Source of the DNA: Candidatus Faecisoma merdavium
Lineage (GTDB): Bacteria; Bacillota_I; Bacilli_A; RF39; UBA660
Direction of reading: 5' to 3'
DNA: 39,628 nucleotides
Assembly (NCBI GenBank): GCA_018716405.1
Contig: DVJX01000048.1
Span: 1 to 39,628 of the forward strand
A model generated the notes under the pieces. The model ran no database searches. It was given only the letters and a program-made list of their open reading frames with translations, and was not told where the DNA came from. Positions within the stretch are counted from its first letter, which is position 1. Each line of letters begins with the position of its first letter. This document shows positions 1 to 39,628 of this stretch, piece after piece. The position numbers were made by a program, and so were the translations under genes.

Positions 1-1935
1 TTTCTATTTCCTACAATTATTTTTTCGGATTCTTCTAATAGTGACATAACATTTTCAGCAACTTTTGAAGCTGGATTTACTTATGGAAATGTTTCTGATT
101 GCAATACAGGAACAGGTATATATTATTTTAAAGGTATTAATAAAGTTGGCGATTATGATGTTTGTTTATGGAGCGCTGCAGAAAAACGTGAGACTAGTAT
201 ATTTAGTTGTGAAGATAATTCTATGGAAAAATTTCCGATCACAGTAAATGGTAGTGATGGAAATGAATATTATGGCTATGGATGCAGAAAACCTAATGAT
301 GAGTCAAGTATAGAATATCAGGAACAAACAATATATGTTGGACAAGATATATCTGTTGGTAATATGTTTAGTGATAGTTGTGAAATCATATCTGGACATG
401 AATATGGACATTTAGGCAGTGATAGTCCAGCCAGTAATCCATGTTGGCTTACTGCTGATAAAGAAGGTGTTGTAAAATTAAAAATAAAAAATAAAACTGA
501 TGGTTGGGTAAGATATCTACAAGTCAACATAGAAAGAGCTTATGTCAAAGTGTCTGAATTAGATAATAAATATAAGTATGGATCTGTAAAATCGTGTGAA
601 TTATATAGTGAACACGCAAATTTGGTAAATTTTGATAATTTAAAATTTTGTGGATATCAATATGGGAAAGATGGCGAATTAATAAAAAATTTAACATGTC
701 AAGATACAGGATATGAACCGTTTTTCTTGAATTTTGAAAGTGCTGATGGAATTTTTTATAAAGGCTATGGATGTAGGAAGATTGTAGAAGAAACAGAAAT
801 AAAGTATGAAGATAAGACGATATATGTTGGACAAGATATATCTGTTGGTAATATGTTTAGTGATAATTGCGAAATTATATCTGGTGGTGAATATGGGCAT
901 TTAGGCAGCGATAGCCCAGCTAGTAATCCATGTTGGTTTACAGCTGATAAAGTAGGAAATACAAAAATTAAAGTTACCAATAAAAATACATCACTTACTA
1001 AATATTATAATTTTACAATAAAAAAAGCAATTACAAGCATTTCTGAATTGGATGATAAGTATTATTATGGCTCAGTTAAAGCATGTTCTCTTCTATTTTC
1101 AGGCAAAGATTATGCTAAAATAGTTAACTTTGAACATTTAAAATTTTGCGGCAATACTTATTTTAGTCCATTAAATCCTAGCGTGTTTGAATGTGAAAAT
1201 GACGATTATGAACAATTTGCATTAACTTTTAGTGATGGAACAAAAGTTTATGAAGGTTTTGGCTGTAGAAAAGAAAAAACGGATGAAGATTTTGAATCAA
1301 AGATTTGCAAAGTTGTTTCTTATGTAAAGAAAGTATCAAATGATAAAAATATTTCATTAGAAGGTTTACCGCCTCTGTTAATTAATGGAGTTGAATATAA
1401 CATTAATGATTTGTCTTGTAATAATGATATTTCTTGTAGTGGAGATGAGTGTAATTATTTTTTAGAAAAAGAAATTAAAAATGTTAGAGAACATTGTAAT
1501 ACTGTTTATCAAAATTATTCTTTTAATGAATATGATTCACATGTTGGCCGTATGAATGAATGTATAAGTTTCAACTCGTTTTATGTAGAGTTGGTTAATA
1601 AAGGAATTGTAAATGATTTAGCTAGCTATTGTGGAATATTATCAGAAGGTTTTGCTAGCAAGGTATCTTTCGTTTTAAACATTATAATGATAGCAGGTCC
1701 TATTTTAGCTATTTTATTAGGTTCAGTTGATTTTATTAAAGTAATTACTAATGGTGATGCTAATAAAGAAATGAAAACAGCGTTTAAACATTTTATGATA
1801 AGAGTAGGATTAGCAGCATTACTATTTATAGTGCCTTTGCTTTTATCATTCATATTAAATATATTTATGGCAAATGAAGGCGGATATGACCCTGAAAATC
1901 CATTTTGTAATGTTAATGATTGGAGTGAACAATGA
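1..1935 (+). CDS. 5'-partial Cys-rich tandem-repeat surface protein with C-terminal VirB2/T4SS-pilin-like two-TM segment
   Basis: Frame 1 is open from base 1 (FLFPTIIFSDSSNSDITFSATFEAGFTYGNVSDCNTG...), so the ORF-track start at 223 is internal. Repeated YVGQDISVGNMFSD(S/N)CEIISG.EYGHLGSDSPASNPCW; C-terminus FVLNIIMIAGPILAILLGSVDFIKVITNGDANKEMKTAFKHFMIRVGLAALLFIVPLLLSFILNIFM. Confidence 0.75.
   Translation, partial: FLFPTIIFSDSSNSDITFSATFEAGFTYGNVSDCNTGTGIYYFKGINKVGDYDVCLWSAAEKRETSIFSCEDNSMEKFPITVNGSDGNEYYGYGCRKPNDESSIEYQEQTIYVGQDISVGNMFSDSCEIISGHEYGHLGSDSPASNPCWLTADKEGVVKLKIKNKTDGWVRYLQVNIERAYVKVSELDNKYKYGSVKSCELYSEHANLVNFDNLKFCGYQYGKDGELIKNLTCQDTGYEPFFLNFESADGIFYKGYGCRKIVEETEIKYEDKTIYVGQDISVGNMFSDNCEIISGGEYGHLGSDSPASNPCWFTADKVGNTKIKVTNKNTSLTKYYNFTIKKAITSISELDDKYYYGSVKACSLLFSGKDYAKIVNFEHLKFCGNTYFSPLNPSVFECENDDYEQFALTFSDGTKVYEGFGCRKEKTDEDFESKICKVVSYVKKVSNDKNISLEGLPPLLINGVEYNINDLSCNNDISCSGDECNYFLEKEIKNVREHCNTVYQNYSFNEYDSHVGRMNECISFNSFYVELVNKGIVNDLASYCGILSEGFASKVSFVLNIIMIAGPILAILLGSVDFIKVITNGDANKEMKTAFKHFMIRVGLAALLFIVPLLLSFILNIFMANEGGYDPENPFCNVNDWSEQ
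331..1300 (+). repeat. Intragenic tandem repeat, period 489 nt (163 codons), two near-complete units plus partial third
   Basis: atatatgttggacaagatatatctgttggtaatatgtttagtgat occurs at 331 and 820; GYGCRK/GFGCRK and SELD(N/D)KY.YGSVK.C motifs recur. Confidence 0.85.
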
Positions 1936-2462
1936 AATTATACGTAATTAGACATGGTGAAACTATTGAAAATGCAAGTGATTGTTTATGTGGAAGAATT
2001 AATAGTTCTTTAACAGAGAAGGGAATAGAACAAGCAAAACAAGTAGGAAAATATTTTAAAGATAAAAAAATTGATTTAATCATTAGTTCTCCTTTAGATA
2101 GATGTAAATTAACAGCCCAACTAATAAGTAATGACACACCAATAATTTATTCTGATAGTTTATTAGGACGAGATCATGGAGAATTTACTGGTGTGCCAAA
2201 AAATTCAATAAATTTTGATGATTATTGGAATTACAATAAAGATATACAGTATGAAAAAGCTGAAAGTGTTAAAACATTATATAATAGGGTTGCTAAATTA
2301 ATTGAAGAAATAAAGGAAAAATATAATGGTAAAAATATAATATTAGTTACTCATAGTGGAATAATAAGGGTATTATATTATTACTTTAAAGGAATTCCAG
2401 AAGATGGTATATTAAGTGAAGTAACAATAAAAAATTGTGAAATATTTGAATATGATATATAA
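1932..2462 (+). CDS. Histidine phosphatase family protein (phosphoglycerate mutase-like)
   Basis: N-terminal YVIRHGET motif, SSPLDRCKLTA, and VTHSGIIR second histidine motif. Confidence 0.85.
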   Translation: MKLYVIRHGETIENASDCLCGRINSSLTEKGIEQAKQVGKYFKDKKIDLIISSPLDRCKLTAQLISNDTPIIYSDSLLGRDHGEFTGVPKNSINFDDYWNYNKDIQYEKAESVKTLYNRVAKLIEEIKEKYNGKNIILVTHSGIIRVLYYYFKGIPEDGILSEVTIKNCEIFEYDI

Positions 2463-2472
2463 GGAGGAAAAT

Positions 2473-3654
2473 ATGAAAATATTATCTGTAAATGCAGGTA
2501 GTTCATCATTAAAATTTCAAATGTATGAAATGCCAGAAGAAAAAGTATTAATATCAGGTGTCTTTGAAAGAATCGGTATAGAAAATAGTATGTATACTAT
2601 TAAAATTAATGGTAATAAAACATCTAAAAATGCTTTATTACCAACTCATAAAGAAGCAGTTAAATTATTAGTAAATGAGTTAATTGAAAATAAAGTAATA
2701 AATTCTTTAGATGAAATAAAAGGAATTGGGCATAGAATAGTACAAGGAGCAGATAAATTTGAAAGTTCAGTTGTAATTGATGATAAAGTTATAGAAACAA
2801 TTTCTGAATTAAGTGCTTTAGCTCCATTACATAATCCAGCTGCAGTAATTGGGATAAAAGCTTTTAAAGAAATAATTCCAGATGCAGTTGCAGTTGCAGT
2901 TTTTGATACATCATTCCATCAAACAATGGAAAAGGAAACATATCTTTATGCACTTCCATACAATTGGTATACTGATTATCAAGTAAGAAAATATGGAGCT
3001 CATGGAACTAGTCATAAGTATGTTGCAGATAGATTATCAAAAATATTGAATAGAGAAGATATTAAAGTAATTGTTTGTCATTTAGGTAATGGTGGAAGTA
3101 TTACTGCAATTAATAATGGTAAATGTGTTGATACATCAATGGGATTTACTCCTAATGCTGGTATTATTATGGGAACAAGATGTGGAGATATAGATGTAAG
3201 TATAGTTCCTTATATGATGCAAAAAACTAATCTTACTTATCAAGAATTAGATAATGTAATAAATAAACAAAGTGGCCTATTAGGTATTAGTGGTGTAAGT
3301 AGTGATTCAAGAGATATTGAATCTGGAATTAAAGAAGGCAATGAAAGATGCATTTTAGCACAAAAAATGTTTGTCAGAAAAGTTGTTGATTATATAGCTA
3401 AATATTATGTTTTATTAAATGGTGTAGATGCAATTGCATTTACTGCGGGAATAGGAGAAAATAGCATTTCAACTAGAAAACATATTATTGATTCCTTAAA
3501 AGTGTTAGGTATTAAATTAGATGAAGAAGCTAATAATATTAGAGGAGAAGAAAAATTAATAACAACAAATGATTCAAGTATTCCATGCTATGTAATACCA
3601 ACAGATGAAGAAGTTATGATGGCACGCGATACATATAAATTTATTGAAGGATAA
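2473..3654 (+). CDS. ackA: Acetate kinase
   Basis: MKILSVNAGSSSLKFQMYEM; GHRIVQGA; HLGNGGSITA; GIGENS. Start moved to 2473 behind AAGGAGG RBS. Confidence 0.95.
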   Translation: MKILSVNAGSSSLKFQMYEMPEEKVLISGVFERIGIENSMYTIKINGNKTSKNALLPTHKEAVKLLVNELIENKVINSLDEIKGIGHRIVQGADKFESSVVIDDKVIETISELSALAPLHNPAAVIGIKAFKEIIPDAVAVAVFDTSFHQTMEKETYLYALPYNWYTDYQVRKYGAHGTSHKYVADRLSKILNREDIKVIVCHLGNGGSITAINNGKCVDTSMGFTPNAGIIMGTRCGDIDVSIVPYMMQKTNLTYQELDNVINKQSGLLGISGVSSDSRDIESGIKEGNERCILAQKMFVRKVVDYIAKYYVLLNGVDAIAFTAGIGENSISTRKHIIDSLKVLGIKLDEEANNIRGEEKLITTNDSSIPCYVIPTDEEVMMARDTYKFIEG

Positions 3655-9867: not shown

Positions 9868-10200
9868 TACTTGACAAACGCTGCATTTGTTGTAGAGGAA
9901 AGTCCATGCTTGCACTATCCTGAGATGGTAGTAGTGATTGTGCATAGGGAAAAAATAACCTATGGTAGTTTATACTAACGGCATCGAAATAATCCTATAA
10001 GGATTAAATTAGATATAAAGTGCCACAGAAACGATGCTTCTAGTAATAGAAGAATGAAACGCGGTAAACCCCACAAGCAAGAAACCCAAATTATGGTAGG
10101 GGAGTTTAAAGTAGGGAATTCAACTTACTTTAGAACCAATTTATTGGTAGATAGATGTTTGTCGCTCTATTTTGAGTACAGAACATGGCTTATAAGTATT
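9866..10200 (+). ncRNA. rnpB: RNase P RNA
   Basis: GTAGAGGAAAGTCCATGCT, GTGCCACAGAAACGA, GAAACGCGGTAAACCCC, AGATAGATG and ACAGAACATGGCTTATAAG landmarks; P1 AATACTT/AAGTATT; located after gpsB as in Bacillus. Confidence 0.92.
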
Positions 10201-10223
10201 ATTTTTTTTATTATGAGGTGAAT

Positions 10224-10694
10224 ATGAAGGAAATAGGAGAAAAATTAAAAGAGGCAAGAGAAAATATCGGTATTTCTATTGAAGAAGCTGCCGAAGATTT
10301 AAAAATCGATGCTTCTCAAATAATAAATATTGAAAATGGTGAAGTCGAACAATTTCAAGATGTGTTTAATTTAAAGTATTTTATAAGAGATTATGCTAAA
10401 TATTTAGGTTTAAATAAAGAACAAATTATTGATGATTTTAATGAATATTTATTTGATTATACTTCTAAAATATCATTAGATGATATAAAAAGAGAAAAAA
10501 AAATAAAAAATGAAGATAAAATTAAATCACCATATACAATAGAAAGAAAAAGTGAAAAGATTTATCAAAATTTTATATATATAGCAATAGTTGTTTTATT
10601 AATTACAATTTGTGTTTTACTTTATACAATTTTAAATGACAATGAAACTGAAGATAATTTAGTCTATGGAGGAACATATGAACTTACCAAATAA
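10224..10694 (+). CDS. RodZ-like HTH membrane protein
   Basis: MKEIGEKLKEARENIGISIEEAAEDLKIDASQIINIENGE plus a single TM IAIVVLLITICVLLYTIL. Start moved to 10224 (GAGGTGA RBS) because 10185 is inside rnpB. Confidence 0.75.
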   Translation: MKEIGEKLKEARENIGISIEEAAEDLKIDASQIINIENGEVEQFQDVFNLKYFIRDYAKYLGLNKEQIIDDFNEYLFDYTSKISLDDIKREKKIKNEDKIKSPYTIERKSEKIYQNFIYIAIVVLLITICVLLYTILNDNETEDNLVYGGTYELTK

Positions 10695-11268
10695 AATAAC
10701 TTCTTTAAGAATATTTATTACAATTTTAATAATAATAATATTGTTATTTCCTTTTGATTCTGTTGGTTTAACAGCAACAAAACTATTTATAAATGAATTA
10801 ATAGTTGTTGATATTAAATATTTTATAGCGGGTGTATTATTTATTTTAGCTTCAATAACAGATTTTTTAGATGGTTATATTGCAAGAAAGTATAACATGA
10901 TTTCTGACTTAGGGAAAATGTTAGATGCAATAGCCGATAAATTTTTAGTAAATTCAGTTTTGATAATTTTAGCTAGCCAAGGATTAATTCATCCTATAAT
11001 TCCTGTTATTGTGGTAGCTAGAGATACTGTTGTAGATATTATCAAGATGATTGTTGGAAGTAAAAAAGAAGTTGTTGCAGCAATTAAGTCTGGAAAGCTT
11101 AAAACTGCGTGTTTAATGTTAGGCATTATATTAACTTTATTTAATAACTTGCCTTTTGAATTATATAATATAAAAGTTTCTGATGCTTTACTTATAATTG
11201 CAACAGTTTTAAGTGTTTATTCTGGGATACAATATTATCAAATAAATAAAAAAATAATTTTAAGTTAA
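10678..11268 (+). CDS. pgsA: CDP-diacylglycerol--glycerol-3-phosphate 3-phosphatidyltransferase
   Basis: CDP-alcohol phosphotransferase signature DFLDGYIARKYNMISDLGKMLDAIADK. Confidence 0.92.
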   Translation: MNLPNKITSLRIFITILIIIILLFPFDSVGLTATKLFINELIVVDIKYFIAGVLFILASITDFLDGYIARKYNMISDLGKMLDAIADKFLVNSVLIILASQGLIHPIIPVIVVARDTVVDIIKMIVGSKKEVVAAIKSGKLKTACLMLGIILTLFNNLPFELYNIKVSDALLIIATVLSVYSGIQYYQINKKIILS

Positions 11269-11280
11269 ATTATTTTTTTT
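11249..11280 (+). terminator. Terminator overlapping pgsA stop
   Basis: AAAAAATAATTT-TAAGTT-AAATTATTTTTTTT. Confidence 0.65.
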
Positions 11281-11314
11281 TAAATATAAATACAAAAATT
11301 TGTTCGTATTTATA

Positions 11315-11343
11315 TTGACTTTTGTTTTTTTTTCGTTTATAAT
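11315..11343 (+). promoter_or_regulatory. recA promoter
   Basis: TTGACT (11315-11320), 17-nt spacer, TATAAT (11338-11343). Confidence 0.8.
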
Positions 11344-29233: not shown

Positions 29234-30091
29234 ATGATTAAAGGAAAACCATTTGTAAAATGGGCTGGAGGAAAAAGACAAATTATAGATAAATTGAAAC
29301 AATATGTTCCAGATGAATTTAATACTTATTATGAACCATTTGTTGGTGGGGGTGCTTTATTATTTGAATTATCTCCTAAAAACGCAGTTATTAATGATTA
29401 TAATAAAGAACTTATGAATGTATATGAATGTATTAAAGATTATAAAAAATTTGAATCTATGTGTAAAGAGTTAAATCACCATGAAACTATGCATTCTGAA
29501 GATTATTATTATGAAATTAGAAATTTGGATAGAGATAAAAAGAAATTTAGTAAATTGGCTGATTATAAAAGAGCTGCTAGAACTATTTATCTTAATAAAT
29601 CTTGTTTTAATGGACTATATAGAGTAAATAGTAAAAACGAATTTAATGTCCCTTTTGGAAAGAAAAATAAAGTTAATACTTACGAAGGACAAAATCTAGG
29701 AATTATATGTGGTTTTTTAAACTATAACAATATTACATTATTATCTGTTGATTTTGAAGAAGCAGTGAAAGATGCTAAAAAAGGAGATTTTATTTATTTT
29801 GATCCTCCGTATGATTCTGACACTAACACTTTTAATAGTTATACTGAAGATGGATTTGATAAAGAAGAGCAAAAAAGACTTGCAGAAGTATTTAAAAATT
29901 TGGATAAAAGAGGTTGTTATGTAATGTTATCAAATCATAATACAACTTTGGTTAATGAATTATATAAAGATTATAATATTCATGTTATTGAAGCTAAAAG
30001 AAATATTAATGCTAATGGGAAAAAAAGAGGAAAAGTAGAAGAAGTAATTATTACTAATTTTGAAAACAAGAGGGGATTCAATAATGAATGA
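29234..30091 (+). CDS. dpnM: DNA adenine methylase, DpnM/Dam type (GATC predicted)
   Basis: PFVKWAGGKRQI, YYEPFVGGGALLFEL, DFIYFDPPYDSDTNTFNSYTEDGF. Confidence 0.93.
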   Translation: MIKGKPFVKWAGGKRQIIDKLKQYVPDEFNTYYEPFVGGGALLFELSPKNAVINDYNKELMNVYECIKDYKKFESMCKELNHHETMHSEDYYYEIRNLDRDKKKFSKLADYKRAARTIYLNKSCFNGLYRVNSKNEFNVPFGKKNKVNTYEGQNLGIICGFLNYNNITLLSVDFEEAVKDAKKGDFIYFDPPYDSDTNTFNSYTEDGFDKEEQKRLAEVFKNLDKRGCYVMLSNHNTTLVNELYKDYNIHVIEAKRNINANGKKRGKVEEVIITNFENKRGFNNE

Positions 30092-30506
30092 TAGGCAATT
30101 CACTATATTGTGTAGTTTAATTACATTTATTTTATCTTTATTTTCTTCACTACTCATTAAAGCATATGATAATAGTAAAGCAAAGAAGAAACAAAAATAT
30201 AATGAGTTTTACAGAGAATTTTATATTATTTGGAACAAAATTCATCAAGGTAGAGCATATGATTTTACAGATTTAAAAAAAGCGGACAGAGAAAGTGTTG
30301 TAGATTTTTTGTTAGAACACTATTATTATGCTTCTAAAAAATTACAAATCCTAATATATGAATTAAAAACAGCTCGATTAGATAATTTTGGTAATAATAA
30401 TAGCGAAAATAAACGAATTTGCAATCAATGTTATAGAGAAATAATTGGCTATATGACAGATAAAGAACAAAAATATAGAAAAAAATATAATAATATAAAT
30501 TATTAA
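30084..30506 (+). CDS. Small single-TM protein of unknown function inside the DpnII-type operon
   Basis: 140 aa; N-terminal TM FTILCSLITFILSLFSSLLIKA then basic, helical cytosolic region; ATG at 30084 after GAGGGGA overlaps the dpnM stop. Confidence 0.7.
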   Translation: MNDRQFTILCSLITFILSLFSSLLIKAYDNSKAKKKQKYNEFYREFYIIWNKIHQGRAYDFTDLKKADRESVVDFLLEHYYYASKKLQILIYELKTARLDNFGNNNSENKRICNQCYREIIGYMTDKEQKYRKKYNNINY

Positions 30507-30564
30507 AAAGAAATAAGGTATAAATATTGTATAATATATATGAATATATGAGGAGGTAGTTTGT

Positions 30565-31344
30565 ATGAGTAAGAAATGTTATTATGAAAATAAAAATTTT
30601 AAACTTATACAAGGTGATTCGTTAAAAATACTTAAGTATATTGAACCTAAAAGTATTGATATGATTTTTGCAGATCCTCCTTATTTTTTGTCTGGTGATG
30701 GAATATCTTGCAGTAGTGGTAAGATGGTAAGTGTTAAAAAAGGTGCATGGGATGAAAAGATAGATATTAAAGAAAAGCATAAATTTAATAGAAAATGGAT
30801 TAGATTATGTAAAGAAGTTTTAAAAGATGATGGGACTATTTGGATAAGTGGAACTATGCACAACATATATTCAATAGGTATGGCACTTGAAGAAGAAGGA
30901 TTTAAAATTATTAATAATATTACTTGGAAAAAATTAAATCCACCTCCTAATATTAGTTGTAGAGCTTTTGTTCATTCAACTGAAACAATATTATGGGCAA
31001 AGAAAGATATAAAAAATGCTAGACATAAATTTAACTATGGACTGATGAAAAAAATGAATGATAATAAACAAATGAAAGATGTTTGGGAAACATCTTTAAC
31101 TAAGTCTAGTGAAAAAAGGTGTGGTAAACACCCAACACAAAAACCAATTGAATTGTTAGAAAAAATTATTTTAGCATCAACTAATGAAGAAGATCTAATT
31201 TTAGATCCTTTTAATGGTAGTGGTACTACTGGTATTGTTGCTAGTAGATTAAATAGAAAATATGTCGGAATTGAAAAGGAAAAAGAATATTTAGATTTGA
31301 CTATAAAAAGAAAGGAGAGCGATATATATGAACAGAAATTTTAA
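30565..31344 (+). CDS. dpnA: DpnA-like adenine DNA methyltransferase
   Basis: DMIFADPPYFLSGDGISCSSGKMVSVKKGAWDE; KHPTQKPIELLEKIILAST; LDPFNGSGTTGIVA. Confidence 0.93.
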   Translation: MSKKCYYENKNFKLIQGDSLKILKYIEPKSIDMIFADPPYFLSGDGISCSSGKMVSVKKGAWDEKIDIKEKHKFNRKWIRLCKEVLKDDGTIWISGTMHNIYSIGMALEEEGFKIINNITWKKLNPPPNISCRAFVHSTETILWAKKDIKNARHKFNYGLMKKMNDNKQMKDVWETSLTKSSEKRCGKHPTQKPIELLEKIILASTNEEDLILDPFNGSGTTGIVASRLNRKYVGIEKEKEYLDLTIKRKESDIYEQKF

Positions 31345-32185
31345 TGAATGGTTAAGCAAATTTAAATCAAGTATATCAGATTATACTTATTATGTTGATT
31401 TTGAGAAAATATACAAAAATGTTGATAAAGTAAAAATTGAACTTAATATTTTAAATTCATTAATCGGTAGTAAAAATATTGAAGAAGAATTTAAAAATAT
31501 TTTAATTAAATATCCAGAAACTTTAGAATGTATTCCTGTTTTACTAGCAATAAGATCAAACGAAATATTTGTTAAAGATGAAATAAATGAATATTTATTT
31601 AAATTTGATAAAATGGTTTATTCTATTTCTGATTATGTGAGATTTATGAAAGAATCAGGATTATTTGATTTGTTACAAAATCATATAATTAATAATTTAC
31701 ATGATTATGTATTAGGAATAGAAGTTGGATTAGATTCAAATGGTAGAAAAAATCGTGGTGGCCATTTAATGGAAAATTTAGTCGAAAACTATATTGAAAA
31801 AGCAGGATTTGTAAAAGGAAAGAATTATTTTAAAGAAATGTATTTAAAAGATATAGAAAGAAAATGGAATCTTGATTTAAGTTCTATGTCAGGTAATAAT
31901 GTATCAACAAAAAGATTTGATTTTGTTATTAAAACCGATAGTCAAGTTTATGTGATAGAAGCTAATTTTTATACTGGTGGTGGATCGAAGTTAAATGAAA
32001 CTGCAAGAAGTTATAAAATGTTAGCACAAGAATCTAAAAAAGTTAAAAATGTAACATTTATTTGGATAACTGATGGTATAGGTTGGAATAGTGCTAGAAA
32101 AAATTTAGAAGAAACATTTAATGTGTTAGATACAATGTATAATATTAGTGACTTAGAAAAAGGAGTTTTAGAAAAATTAATTTAG
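31328..32185 (+). CDS. dpnB: DpnII-family type II restriction endonuclease (GATC predicted)
   Basis: Position overlapping dpnA by 17 nt; LLAIRSNEIFVKD; RGGHLMENLVENYIEKAGF; KRFDFVIKTDSQVYVIEANFYTGGGSKLNETARSYK. Confidence 0.92.
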   Translation: MNRNFNEWLSKFKSSISDYTYYVDFEKIYKNVDKVKIELNILNSLIGSKNIEEEFKNILIKYPETLECIPVLLAIRSNEIFVKDEINEYLFKFDKMVYSISDYVRFMKESGLFDLLQNHIINNLHDYVLGIEVGLDSNGRKNRGGHLMENLVENYIEKAGFVKGKNYFKEMYLKDIERKWNLDLSSMSGNNVSTKRFDFVIKTDSQVYVIEANFYTGGGSKLNETARSYKMLAQESKKVKNVTFIWITDGIGWNSARKNLEETFNVLDTMYNISDLEKGVLEKLI

Positions 32186-32280: not shown

Positions 32281-32523
32281 ATGTTTAATAAAAGATGTTG
32301 TTGTAATAAAGGTTTTATGCCACAACCTATGCAACCAATTTATGAACCTATGATCAATAATTGTGTTGAAAAAGATTTTTATTGTGAGGTACCACATATT
32401 TGTCCTATAAATACTCACACAATTAATAGAGTTCATTATGTTCATAGTTATACTCCAAAGTATACTTGTTCTGAAGAAACACAAATCATAAATGATGATT
32501 GTGGATGCAATATGTTTAAATAA
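32281..32523 (+). CDS. CotD-like Cys/His-rich coat-type protein
   Basis: N-terminal KRCCCNKGF, central HTINRVHYVHSYTPKY, C-terminal DDCGCNMF; AGGAGG RBS. Confidence 0.6.
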   Translation: MFNKRCCCNKGFMPQPMQPIYEPMINNCVEKDFYCEVPHICPINTHTINRVHYVHSYTPKYTCSEETQIINDDCGCNMFK

Positions 32524-34243: not shown

Positions 34244-34909
34244 TCATATCTTTTTAAAATATTCCTCTAATGTTAAATTATTTTCATAAATATATTTAGC
34301 TACCTCAATTCCAACATAACGATAATGCCATGGCTCATATTTAAAACCTGTTATATGTTCTTTTCCTTTAGGATATCTTAAAATAAAACCATATTTATGA
34401 GCATTATTTTTCATCCAAATAAATTCTTTAGAGTTTTCAAAATTATCATAATCTTTGTTGGAACCTTCAACATCTACTGCTAAACCAGTTTGATGTTCGG
34501 AATGTCCTGGTTTAGCTGAACAATCTAAGGCATAGTTCAAACTTTTTTCTTTAACATAATAATTGAACAATTCATTTTGATAATTATAATCACGATAAGC
34601 TGATACTGCTACTATTCTATAGCCTAGTTTATTTGCATCACTACTTAATTTTTCAAAAGCTATTTTAGCTTCTTTTTTTAAGTATTTATCTTTATTAGCA
34701 TATTTTAAAGAAATACTTTCTAAATCTTTTGGAATATAACTACTTAGTAATTGATTATTTTTATTAACCAAAACTAATATATCATCAGGATTTTCAATGA
34801 GTTTAATATTTTTATAAAATACTTCTTCATCTTTATTAAAAAACAATAAAATTAAAATACCAATAATTATATAATAAGCTTTTTTTAAATTTTTTTCCAT
34901 GATATTCAC
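34244..34909 (-). CDS. D-alanyl-D-alanine carboxypeptidase family protein (VanY type)
   Basis: SAYRDYNYQNELF, GHSEHQTGLAVDV, GFILRYPKGKEHITGFKYEPWHYRYVG. Confidence 0.9.
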   Translation of the reverse strand: MNIMEKNLKKAYYIIIGILILLFFNKDEEVFYKNIKLIENPDDILVLVNKNNQLLSSYIPKDLESISLKYANKDKYLKKEAKIAFEKLSSDANKLGYRIVAVSAYRDYNYQNELFNYYVKEKSLNYALDCSAKPGHSEHQTGLAVDVEGSNKDYDNFENSKEFIWMKNNAHKYGFILRYPKGKEHITGFKYEPWHYRYVGIEVAKYIYENNLTLEEYFKKI

Positions 34910-39352: not shown

Positions 39353-39372
39353 AAGATAGAATAATCTATCTT
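39353..39372 (-). terminator. Terminator of the second VanY gene
   Basis: Minus strand AAGATAGA-TTAT-TCTATCTTTTTTT; stop codon at 39371-39373 overlaps the stem. Confidence 0.65.
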
Positions 39373-39628
39373 AGCAAGCATTTTTATATTCACAATAATA
39401 TGCATAATATTCATCGTAGGTTAAACCGCTTTCTTTTACTTTAGTAGCTAGATCTTTACCAACGTATCTATAATGCCATGATTCATAGTTGTATCCAGTT
39501 ATATATTCTTTACCTTTAGGATATCTCAATATAAATCCATATAAGTGAGCATTTTCTTGTAGCCATTCAAATTCTAAAGTATTTTCAAATTCATTTCCAA
39601 CATCTCCATCTGTAACTATATCTAATGC
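39371..39628 (-). CDS. 5'-partial D-alanyl-D-alanine carboxypeptidase (VanY type), second paralog
   Basis: Manual minus-strand translation: ALDIVTDGDVGNEFENTLEFEWLQENAHLYGFILRYPKGKEYITGYNYESWHYRYVGKDLATKVKESGLTYDEYYAYYCEYKNAC*. Confidence 0.88.
   Translation of the reverse strand, partial: ALDIVTDGDVGNEFENTLEFEWLQENAHLYGFILRYPKGKEYITGYNYESWHYRYVGKDLATKVKESGLTYDEYYAYYCEYKNAC

Follow-up and report, generated by a model that had tools for sequence, protein, structure and literature searches.

Conjugative pilins of the VirB2, TrbC and TraA type carry a signal peptide and two membrane helices with a basic loop, and both of their ends lie outside. According to a 2025 review, VirB2 subunits are not found in Gram-positive T4SSs, the Patescibacteria being the sole recent exception, and Gram-positive systems often rely on anchored adhesins instead (PMC12857230). 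The Patescibacteria possess VirB2-like pilins that match PF18895, and Gram-positive T4SS classes were described as being without such pilins; in the same work VirB2 is termed a small protein, arrays of 2-11 pilin genes are reported, and Bartonella and Anaplasma are cited as bacteria whose tandem diverging VirB2 copies are thought to vary the exposed surface (PMC12102498). VirB2-type pilins as such are already known; what appears new in the Bacilli family described here is the fusion to large ectodomains, the Bacilli host and a locus in which Tad and T4SS genes are joined. Neither a VirB2 fused to a large ectodomain nor a joined Tad-T4SS locus in Bacilli or Tenericutes was found in the open-access literature that we searched. 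The family represents a second monoderm lineage with VirB2-type pilins, some of which are fused to adhesin-like domains.

The window, by which we mean the whole stretch of DNA analysed (39,628 nucleotides), opens inside a gene for such a fusion. Like the Patescibacteria pilins (PMC12102498), the pilins of this monoderm family have the hairpin by profile, occur in multiple diverged copies and accompany virB3/PrgI, virB4, virB6 and virD4, with no relaxase found in a search limited to PF03432; unlike them, the Bacilli hairpin bears an ectodomain of up to ~590 aa and its T4SS is joined to a Tad locus. With VirB2/TrbC/TraA (PF04956) the window protein shares a probable signal peptide, a two-helix hairpin, a basic loop and predicted outside ends, but PF04956 was not among the families matched, and the fusion carries a large ectodomain and conserved Cys residues on both outer flanks of the hairpin. 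Several diverging copies are also a feature of Bartonella and Anaplasma VirB2, whereas here entire ectodomains are swapped. The presumed role, holding partner cells for a monoderm T4SS, resembles that of LPxTG adhesins such as PrgB (PMC12857230); the window protein, however, is anchored through a pilin hairpin rather than by sortase, and no sequence relation to them was seen. As in Tad (Flp, type IVc) pilus systems, CpaB/RcpC, TadA and pilin-like genes are present within the family's locus; the differences are that the protein encoded in the window does not belong to the type IV pilins and that the Tad genes are followed immediately by those of the T4SS. Our main reading, to which we assign a probability of roughly 0.5, is that the protein is an adhesin-type VirB2 subunit of an orphan chromosomal T4SS of this lineage.

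The open reading frame at 1-1935 on the + strand has no start within the window. It accounts for 644 aa, with the C-terminus ...NVNDWSEQ, and 24 of these residues are Cys. Since the window is the entire contig C11 of its assembly (1.31 Mb, 104 contigs), the absence of the 5' end reflects a contig break and not the choice of window. A signal peptide opens the full-length relatives of the same genus, from which we infer that the first residues in the window, FLFPTIIFS, are likely the end of such a peptide and that perhaps only 10-20 aa are missing. Three Cys-rich modules alternate with two Ig-like modules; after them come a stalk of helices and, at the membrane, a hairpin of two helices:

1-1935, + strand: fusion gene of ectodomain and VirB2 (T4SS_pilin), 5'-truncated by the contig start
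1-27, + strand: FLFPTIIFS, probable end of a signal peptide, inferred from full-length relatives
79-291, + strand: Cys-rich copy 1 (aa 27-97, ends GYGCRK), z=8.2 and 11.5 against the other copies
316-543, + strand: Ig-like copy 1 (aa 106-181), z=56 against copy 2; all-beta in the model, Foldseek neighbours are Ig-like/cadherin-like chains
559-780, + strand: Cys-rich copy 2 (aa 187-260), z=21.9 against copy 3
802-1035, + strand: Ig-like copy 2 (aa 268-345), from repeat comparison and structure model
1042-1272, + strand: Cys-rich copy 3 (aa 348-424), from repeat comparison
1285-1644, + strand: membrane-proximal helical stalk (aa 429-548) with family-invariant C499, C521 and C544, from alignments and low-confidence model helices
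1600-1920, + strand: 3' module with ~92% DNA identity to a paralogue on contig C7 that has an unrelated ectodomain
1648-1728, + strand: first membrane helix (aa 550-576) of the T4SS_pilin hairpin, from hydropathy, a model helix at 549-583 and the PF18895 region in relatives
1729-1803, + strand: basic loop between the two helices, DFIKVITNGDANKEMKTAFKHFMIR (aa 577-601, net charge +2), with invariant D, K and R positions; cytoplasmic by prediction
1804-1869, + strand: membrane helix 2 (aa 602-623), from hydropathy and model
1870-1932, + strand: C-terminal tail (aa 624-644, net charge -5), predicted outside; its C636 is invariant among the fusions and the aligned standalone pilins
1932-3654, + strand: phosphoglycerate-mutase-like (PGAM) gene, then ackA; both serve to recognise the lysS-fusion-PGAM-ackA site by synteny

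Both kinds of module are ~75 aa long, and the Cys-rich one ends in the pattern G-G-CRK. The two Ig-like copies (aa ~106-181 and ~268-345) resemble each other at z=56 above shuffled controls, and the three Cys-rich copies (aa ~27-97, 187-260 and 348-424) give pairwise values of z=8 to 22 over shuffles. The AlphaFold model of the window protein is only rough (mean pLDDT 61, hairpin blocks 55-70). The Ig-like modules are drawn in it as all-beta, with block pLDDT mostly of 77-92 and one weak block in each. Foldseek neighbours of the chain are multi-domain Ig- and cadherin-type proteins, the S-layer proteins SbsB and SbsC, and the LigA variable region; whole-chain TM-scores are near 0.1, and the comparison therefore supports only the fold class of single modules. 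No structural match to the hairpin appeared in the Foldseek searches of the window and relative models, and a relative modelled with six orthologues (mean pLDDT 66) had no Foldseek match at E <=0.001. Searched as a sequence against Pfam, NCBIfam, PHROGs and PDB sequences, the window protein gave chance-level matches only (Frizzled, MscL, a sub-cut-off toxin C-domain, a terminase fragment), which we rejected.

An earlier note on this DNA, made from the sequence alone, had described a protein of more than 640 aa, open from base 1 with its N-terminus outside the window, rich in Cys-containing repeats and ending in two hydrophobic helices around a loop. All of this held: the contig starts inside the gene, the module copies stand well above shuffles, and hydropathy places the segments at aa ~550-576 and 602-623, enclosing DFIKVITNGDANKEMKTAFKHFMIR. 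The structure model that it proposed gave all-beta Ig-like modules in the chain present; the hairpin was modelled with moderate confidence and without a structural match. The note had called the architecture unusual and had named a conventional signal peptide together with a known domain architecture as grounds for refutation. A signal peptide is probable, but the overall architecture has no known counterpart, and the proposal is not refuted on those grounds.

The fusion genes of the genus occupy a fixed site, lysS - fusion(s) - PGAM - ackA, apart from the T4SS locus, and the window gene itself is not in that locus. In the window's genome, lysS and one fusion gene lie close to the end of contig C7, while C11 starts inside a second fusion gene, followed by PGAM and ackA; we infer that the two contigs likely adjoin. 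A viral or mobile-element origin of the fusion gene was considered and is unsupported, the lysS-ackA position being held in most of the genus.

The homology of the tail hairpin to T4SS_pilin is shown, albeit through relatives. The window tail itself has no match to PF18895 (curated cut-off 26.6 bits) in Pfam even at E 10, so that the pilin link must run through its relatives, and 22 of 24 same-genus tails do match this family (best E 2.8e-7). In whole-genome searches, six proteins at places of tail matches exceed the cut-off, with 33.0, 31.6, 30.2, 27.6, 27.5 and 27.2 bits; these values include lysS-ackA orthologues in G004 (33.0 and 31.6), G011 (30.2) and G015 (27.6 and 27.2), and the same-site orthologues in these three genomes and G017 range over 27.2-33.0 bits. 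A standalone pilin of 152 aa (L043, genome G030) scores 29.9 bits against PF18895 and aligns with the window tail at E 2.2e-12 and 41% identity. Profile-profile comparison of the fusion tails with standalone pilins of 105-150 aa gives 99.4% and E 4e-21. Five positions (P, D, R, F and C) are invariant among standalone pilins and all five are retained in the window tail; a Cys lies just ahead of helix 1 in nearly all members and another after helix 2 in all, from which an outer-face disulfide across the hairpin may be inferred as a possibility. Hydropathy and charge fit a VirB2-type topology, which remains a prediction, with two membrane helices, the loop (net +2) inside and the C-terminus (net -5) outside. 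PF04956 (VirB2/TrbC) was absent from the families listed at E up to 10 for any tail and for the window protein, and the hairpin profile found nothing in the PDB. The pilin-like tail proposed in the earlier note thus held through relatives only, and of the two families that it named, PF18895 was supported in this way and PF04956 was not.

Simple two-helix membrane segments might resemble each other by convergence. The weak chance matches to the Frizzled and MscL models and the lack of a direct PF18895 match for the window sequence speak for this explanation. Against it stand the profile-profile E of 4e-21, the orthologues above the PF18895 cut-off, the common Cys, P, D and R positions and the location beside virB6 in relatives. 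We regard convergence as very unlikely and already disfavoured.

All genomes compared are MAGs, and the named records with the tail are MAGs labelled uncultured Bacilli, Tenericutes or Bacillales. The tail is present in 17/17 other genomes of the genus and in 19/19 genomes of other genera of the family, and was absent from all 23 sampled genomes from other families of the class; PF18895 matches follow in 31/37 family genomes (own included) and in 3/23 others. A single-sequence search of GTDB contigs gave no match, and a search with an alignment as the query gave 21 loci. Searches of plasmids and of viral contigs gave no match to the tail. The window ectodomain was found in none of 17 sister species and in no viral contig; a 14-bit match in G028 was dismissed, as it falls inside a different gene. 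It is shown, then, that the tail is conserved while the ectodomain turns over: the 27 same-genus tails are all mutually recognisable, and their ectodomains are of several types, the window type matching none of the 26 others. The closest tail to that of the window belongs to the paralogue on C7 (tree support 100/99). The two genes share ~92% DNA identity over nt ~1600-1920; upstream the identity drops to background, and downstream the likeness stops at the stop codon. Two unrelated ectodomains therefore sit on a tail module that was shared or converted recently. We read this as a constant anchor with a changing outer face under selection; recombination was not formally tested.

The earlier note had stated that neither VirB4 nor VirD4 is encoded in the window, and this is correct; both are found elsewhere in the same genome. 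The locus was reconstructed from contigs of 19 genomes, starting from distant tail matches. Its Tad part consists of a pilin-like gene, CpaB, TadA, TadB, TadC, two more pilin-like genes and TadZ, and it continues with one or two hairpin pilins, VirB6-like, VirB3-like and a split VirB4 (181 + 594 aa), ending with a ~770-aa protein, a lipoprotein-like gene and VirD4. The presence of a T4SS in the window's own genome is shown: the Tad half lies on C8 and the T4SS half on C20, where virB3, virB4, virB6, virD4 and a SpoIID-CHAP enzyme are flanked by smpB/rnr. In Pfam searches of this genome VirD4 scores 190 bits, VirB4 (P-loop_TraG) 50.8, VirB6 (TrbL_4) 27.9 bits with a cut-off of 27, TadA (T2SSE) 96 bits and CpaB/RcpC 35.4 bits, and the ~770-aa protein is identified as SpoIID + CHAP; VirB3/PrgI stays under its cut-off (20.3 of 27 bits) and TadB has no Pfam match. 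Several gene names of the locus rest on position and homology among relatives, and those of TadB, TadC and TadZ on nothing else.

A VirB4 ortholog is present in 32/36 other family genomes at 69-94% identity (one fragmented at contig ends) and in 0/23 other class members, where two leftover matches reach 28-30%. Over most of the genus VirB4 is 91-94% identical (at least 91% in nearly all same-genus species), whereas the ectodomain is unrecognisable. The best plasmid matches of VirB4 are conjugative ATPases of Firmicutes and mollicutes, all below 60% identity, with the best-ranked of those listed at 31%. Together, VirB4, VirD4, VirB6, VirB3 and a wall hydrolase fit the monoderm (MPF-FATA-like) class, an assignment made from plasmid matches without a tree. 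No match to the relaxase family PF03432, the single relaxase family searched, was found in the own genome, which is 91% complete.

Several observations on this machinery stand by themselves. One protein of the T4SS locus on C20 (L081:11858-14176) combines SpoIID and CHAP; lytic enzymes of the SpoIID kind seem out of the ordinary for a T4SS. A second VirD4-like gene lies beside a serine recombinase on C70 of the same genome (L083:1-3535) and probably belongs to a separate integrative element. In the T4SS locus of G008, a transposase-like gene on the opposite strand (L053:8374-9774) has inserted between the two genes for hairpin pilins. In G040, which belongs to a different family of the class, PF18895 matches (C5:7731-13122), one of them in a 512-aa ORF, flank a distant virB4; this region could possibly represent a mobile-element source of the family's system.

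The neighbourhood of the hairpin gene is shown for the relatives. In 16 of the 19 genomes mapped it is the immediate 5' neighbour of virB6, with both genes on one strand, and in five other genera (G032, G033, G036, G023 and G027; L086-L090) this virB6-adjacent gene encodes a fusion of 347-661 aa, with a signal-peptide-like N-terminus and the hairpin at or near the C-terminus. The architecture, which the earlier note had proposed to look for in related genomes, is present there inside the T4SS operon itself, and these five fusions are the strongest tie between the ectodomain-hairpin architecture and the T4SS. The T4SS locus of the window's genus retains its own short pilins, and in the window genome a short hairpin pilin (L035) is next to TadZ on C8.

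Within the hybrid locus, the partner of the fusion might alternatively be the Tad pilus and not the T4SS. This is supported by the own-genome short hairpin pilin adjoining TadZ on C8, with the T4SS on C20, but is at odds with the hairpin gene lying directly beside virB6 in most genomes mapped and with the hairpin family being T4SS_pilin and not type IV pilin; we find it unlikely. It is also unlikely that the protein is a polymerising main pilin, in which entire filaments would be built of fusion subunits, each with its ectodomain: the VirB2-like predicted topology and the conserved hairpin would allow this, but a helical filament would offer little room for ectodomains of 350-600 aa, and short pilins without ectodomains exist in the same genome (L035).

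Hairpins are also found in other protein contexts. In the window's own genome (L034:8145-9380, C102) a protein of 411 aa starts with the same hairpin and also has an M23 peptidase domain (42 bits), so that it reads as a wall hydrolase on a pilin-like anchor. Two hairpin proteins of G021 (L045:7840-9234 and 10002-11330) have C-termini that resemble YkuD L,D-transpeptidases, and L044 contains an additional large hairpin ORF of 403 aa.

The main rival to our reading, and a possible one, is that the hairpin was copied from a pilin long ago and now merely anchors a surface protein that acts on its own, independently of the T4SS. In its favour, gene and T4SS lie apart in the window's genus, the hairpin also occurs at the opposite end of the M23 enzyme in the same genome and on the putative YkuD-like proteins of another genus, and the ectodomains are far larger than any known pilin. 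It does not account well for the pilin-specific residues that remain invariant, for fusions replacing the pilin adjoining virB6 in five other genera, or for the same family-wide range of T4SS and tail.

In the adhesin-type VirB2 reading, Sec would export the fusion protein, its ectodomain of alternating Cys-rich and Ig-like modules would face outward, and the two helices would insert in the manner of VirB2, leaving both termini on the outer side and the basic loop in the cytoplasm. The hairpin may dock on the VirB6/VirB4 platform, or on a pilus built by that platform, and a species-specific binding domain would thereby be shown to partner cells. Docking on VirB6 or a pilus is inferred from the homology, the virB6 position of the sister fusions and the shared conserved residues; pilus assembly and adhesion are likewise inferences, and there are no binding or functional data. 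In its favour are the tail homology through relatives, the place of hairpin genes beside virB6, the T4SS in the same genome, and the family-wide range that the tail and virB4 share. Points against it are the distance of the gene from the T4SS in this genus, the lack of a direct PF18895 match or a structural match for the hairpin, and the simplicity of the hairpin, which would let it be taken up as a mere anchor, as the M23 peptidase fusion illustrates.

A bolder reading, which we offer tentatively and would not back as the likelier outcome, is a joint claim that this monoderm Bacilli family keeps an orphan Tad-T4SS hybrid whose VirB2 subunits bear swappable adhesin ectodomains and that the hybrid is used for cell-to-cell contact or delivery, not for mobile-element transfer. 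Should the fusion indeed act together with the T4SS, a single molecule would be both pilin and adhesin, and the exchange of one exon-like domain could alter contact specificity without any change in the machine. With its joined locus, the family also offers an opportunity to test how a Tad pilus and a T4SS encoded together are related.

Elsewhere in the window, a Cys-rich ORF of 80 aa at 32281-32523 (MFNKRCCCNKG...) is like small spore-coat-like proteins, though it overlaps an antisense ORF and its status as a gene is doubtful. At 29234-32185, two genes for DNA methylases and one for a likely restriction enzyme form, by eye, a DpnII/MboI-like restriction-modification cluster. Two VanY-like D-Ala-D-Ala carboxypeptidase genes are located at 34244-34909 and 39371-39628, the second being truncated by the contig end.
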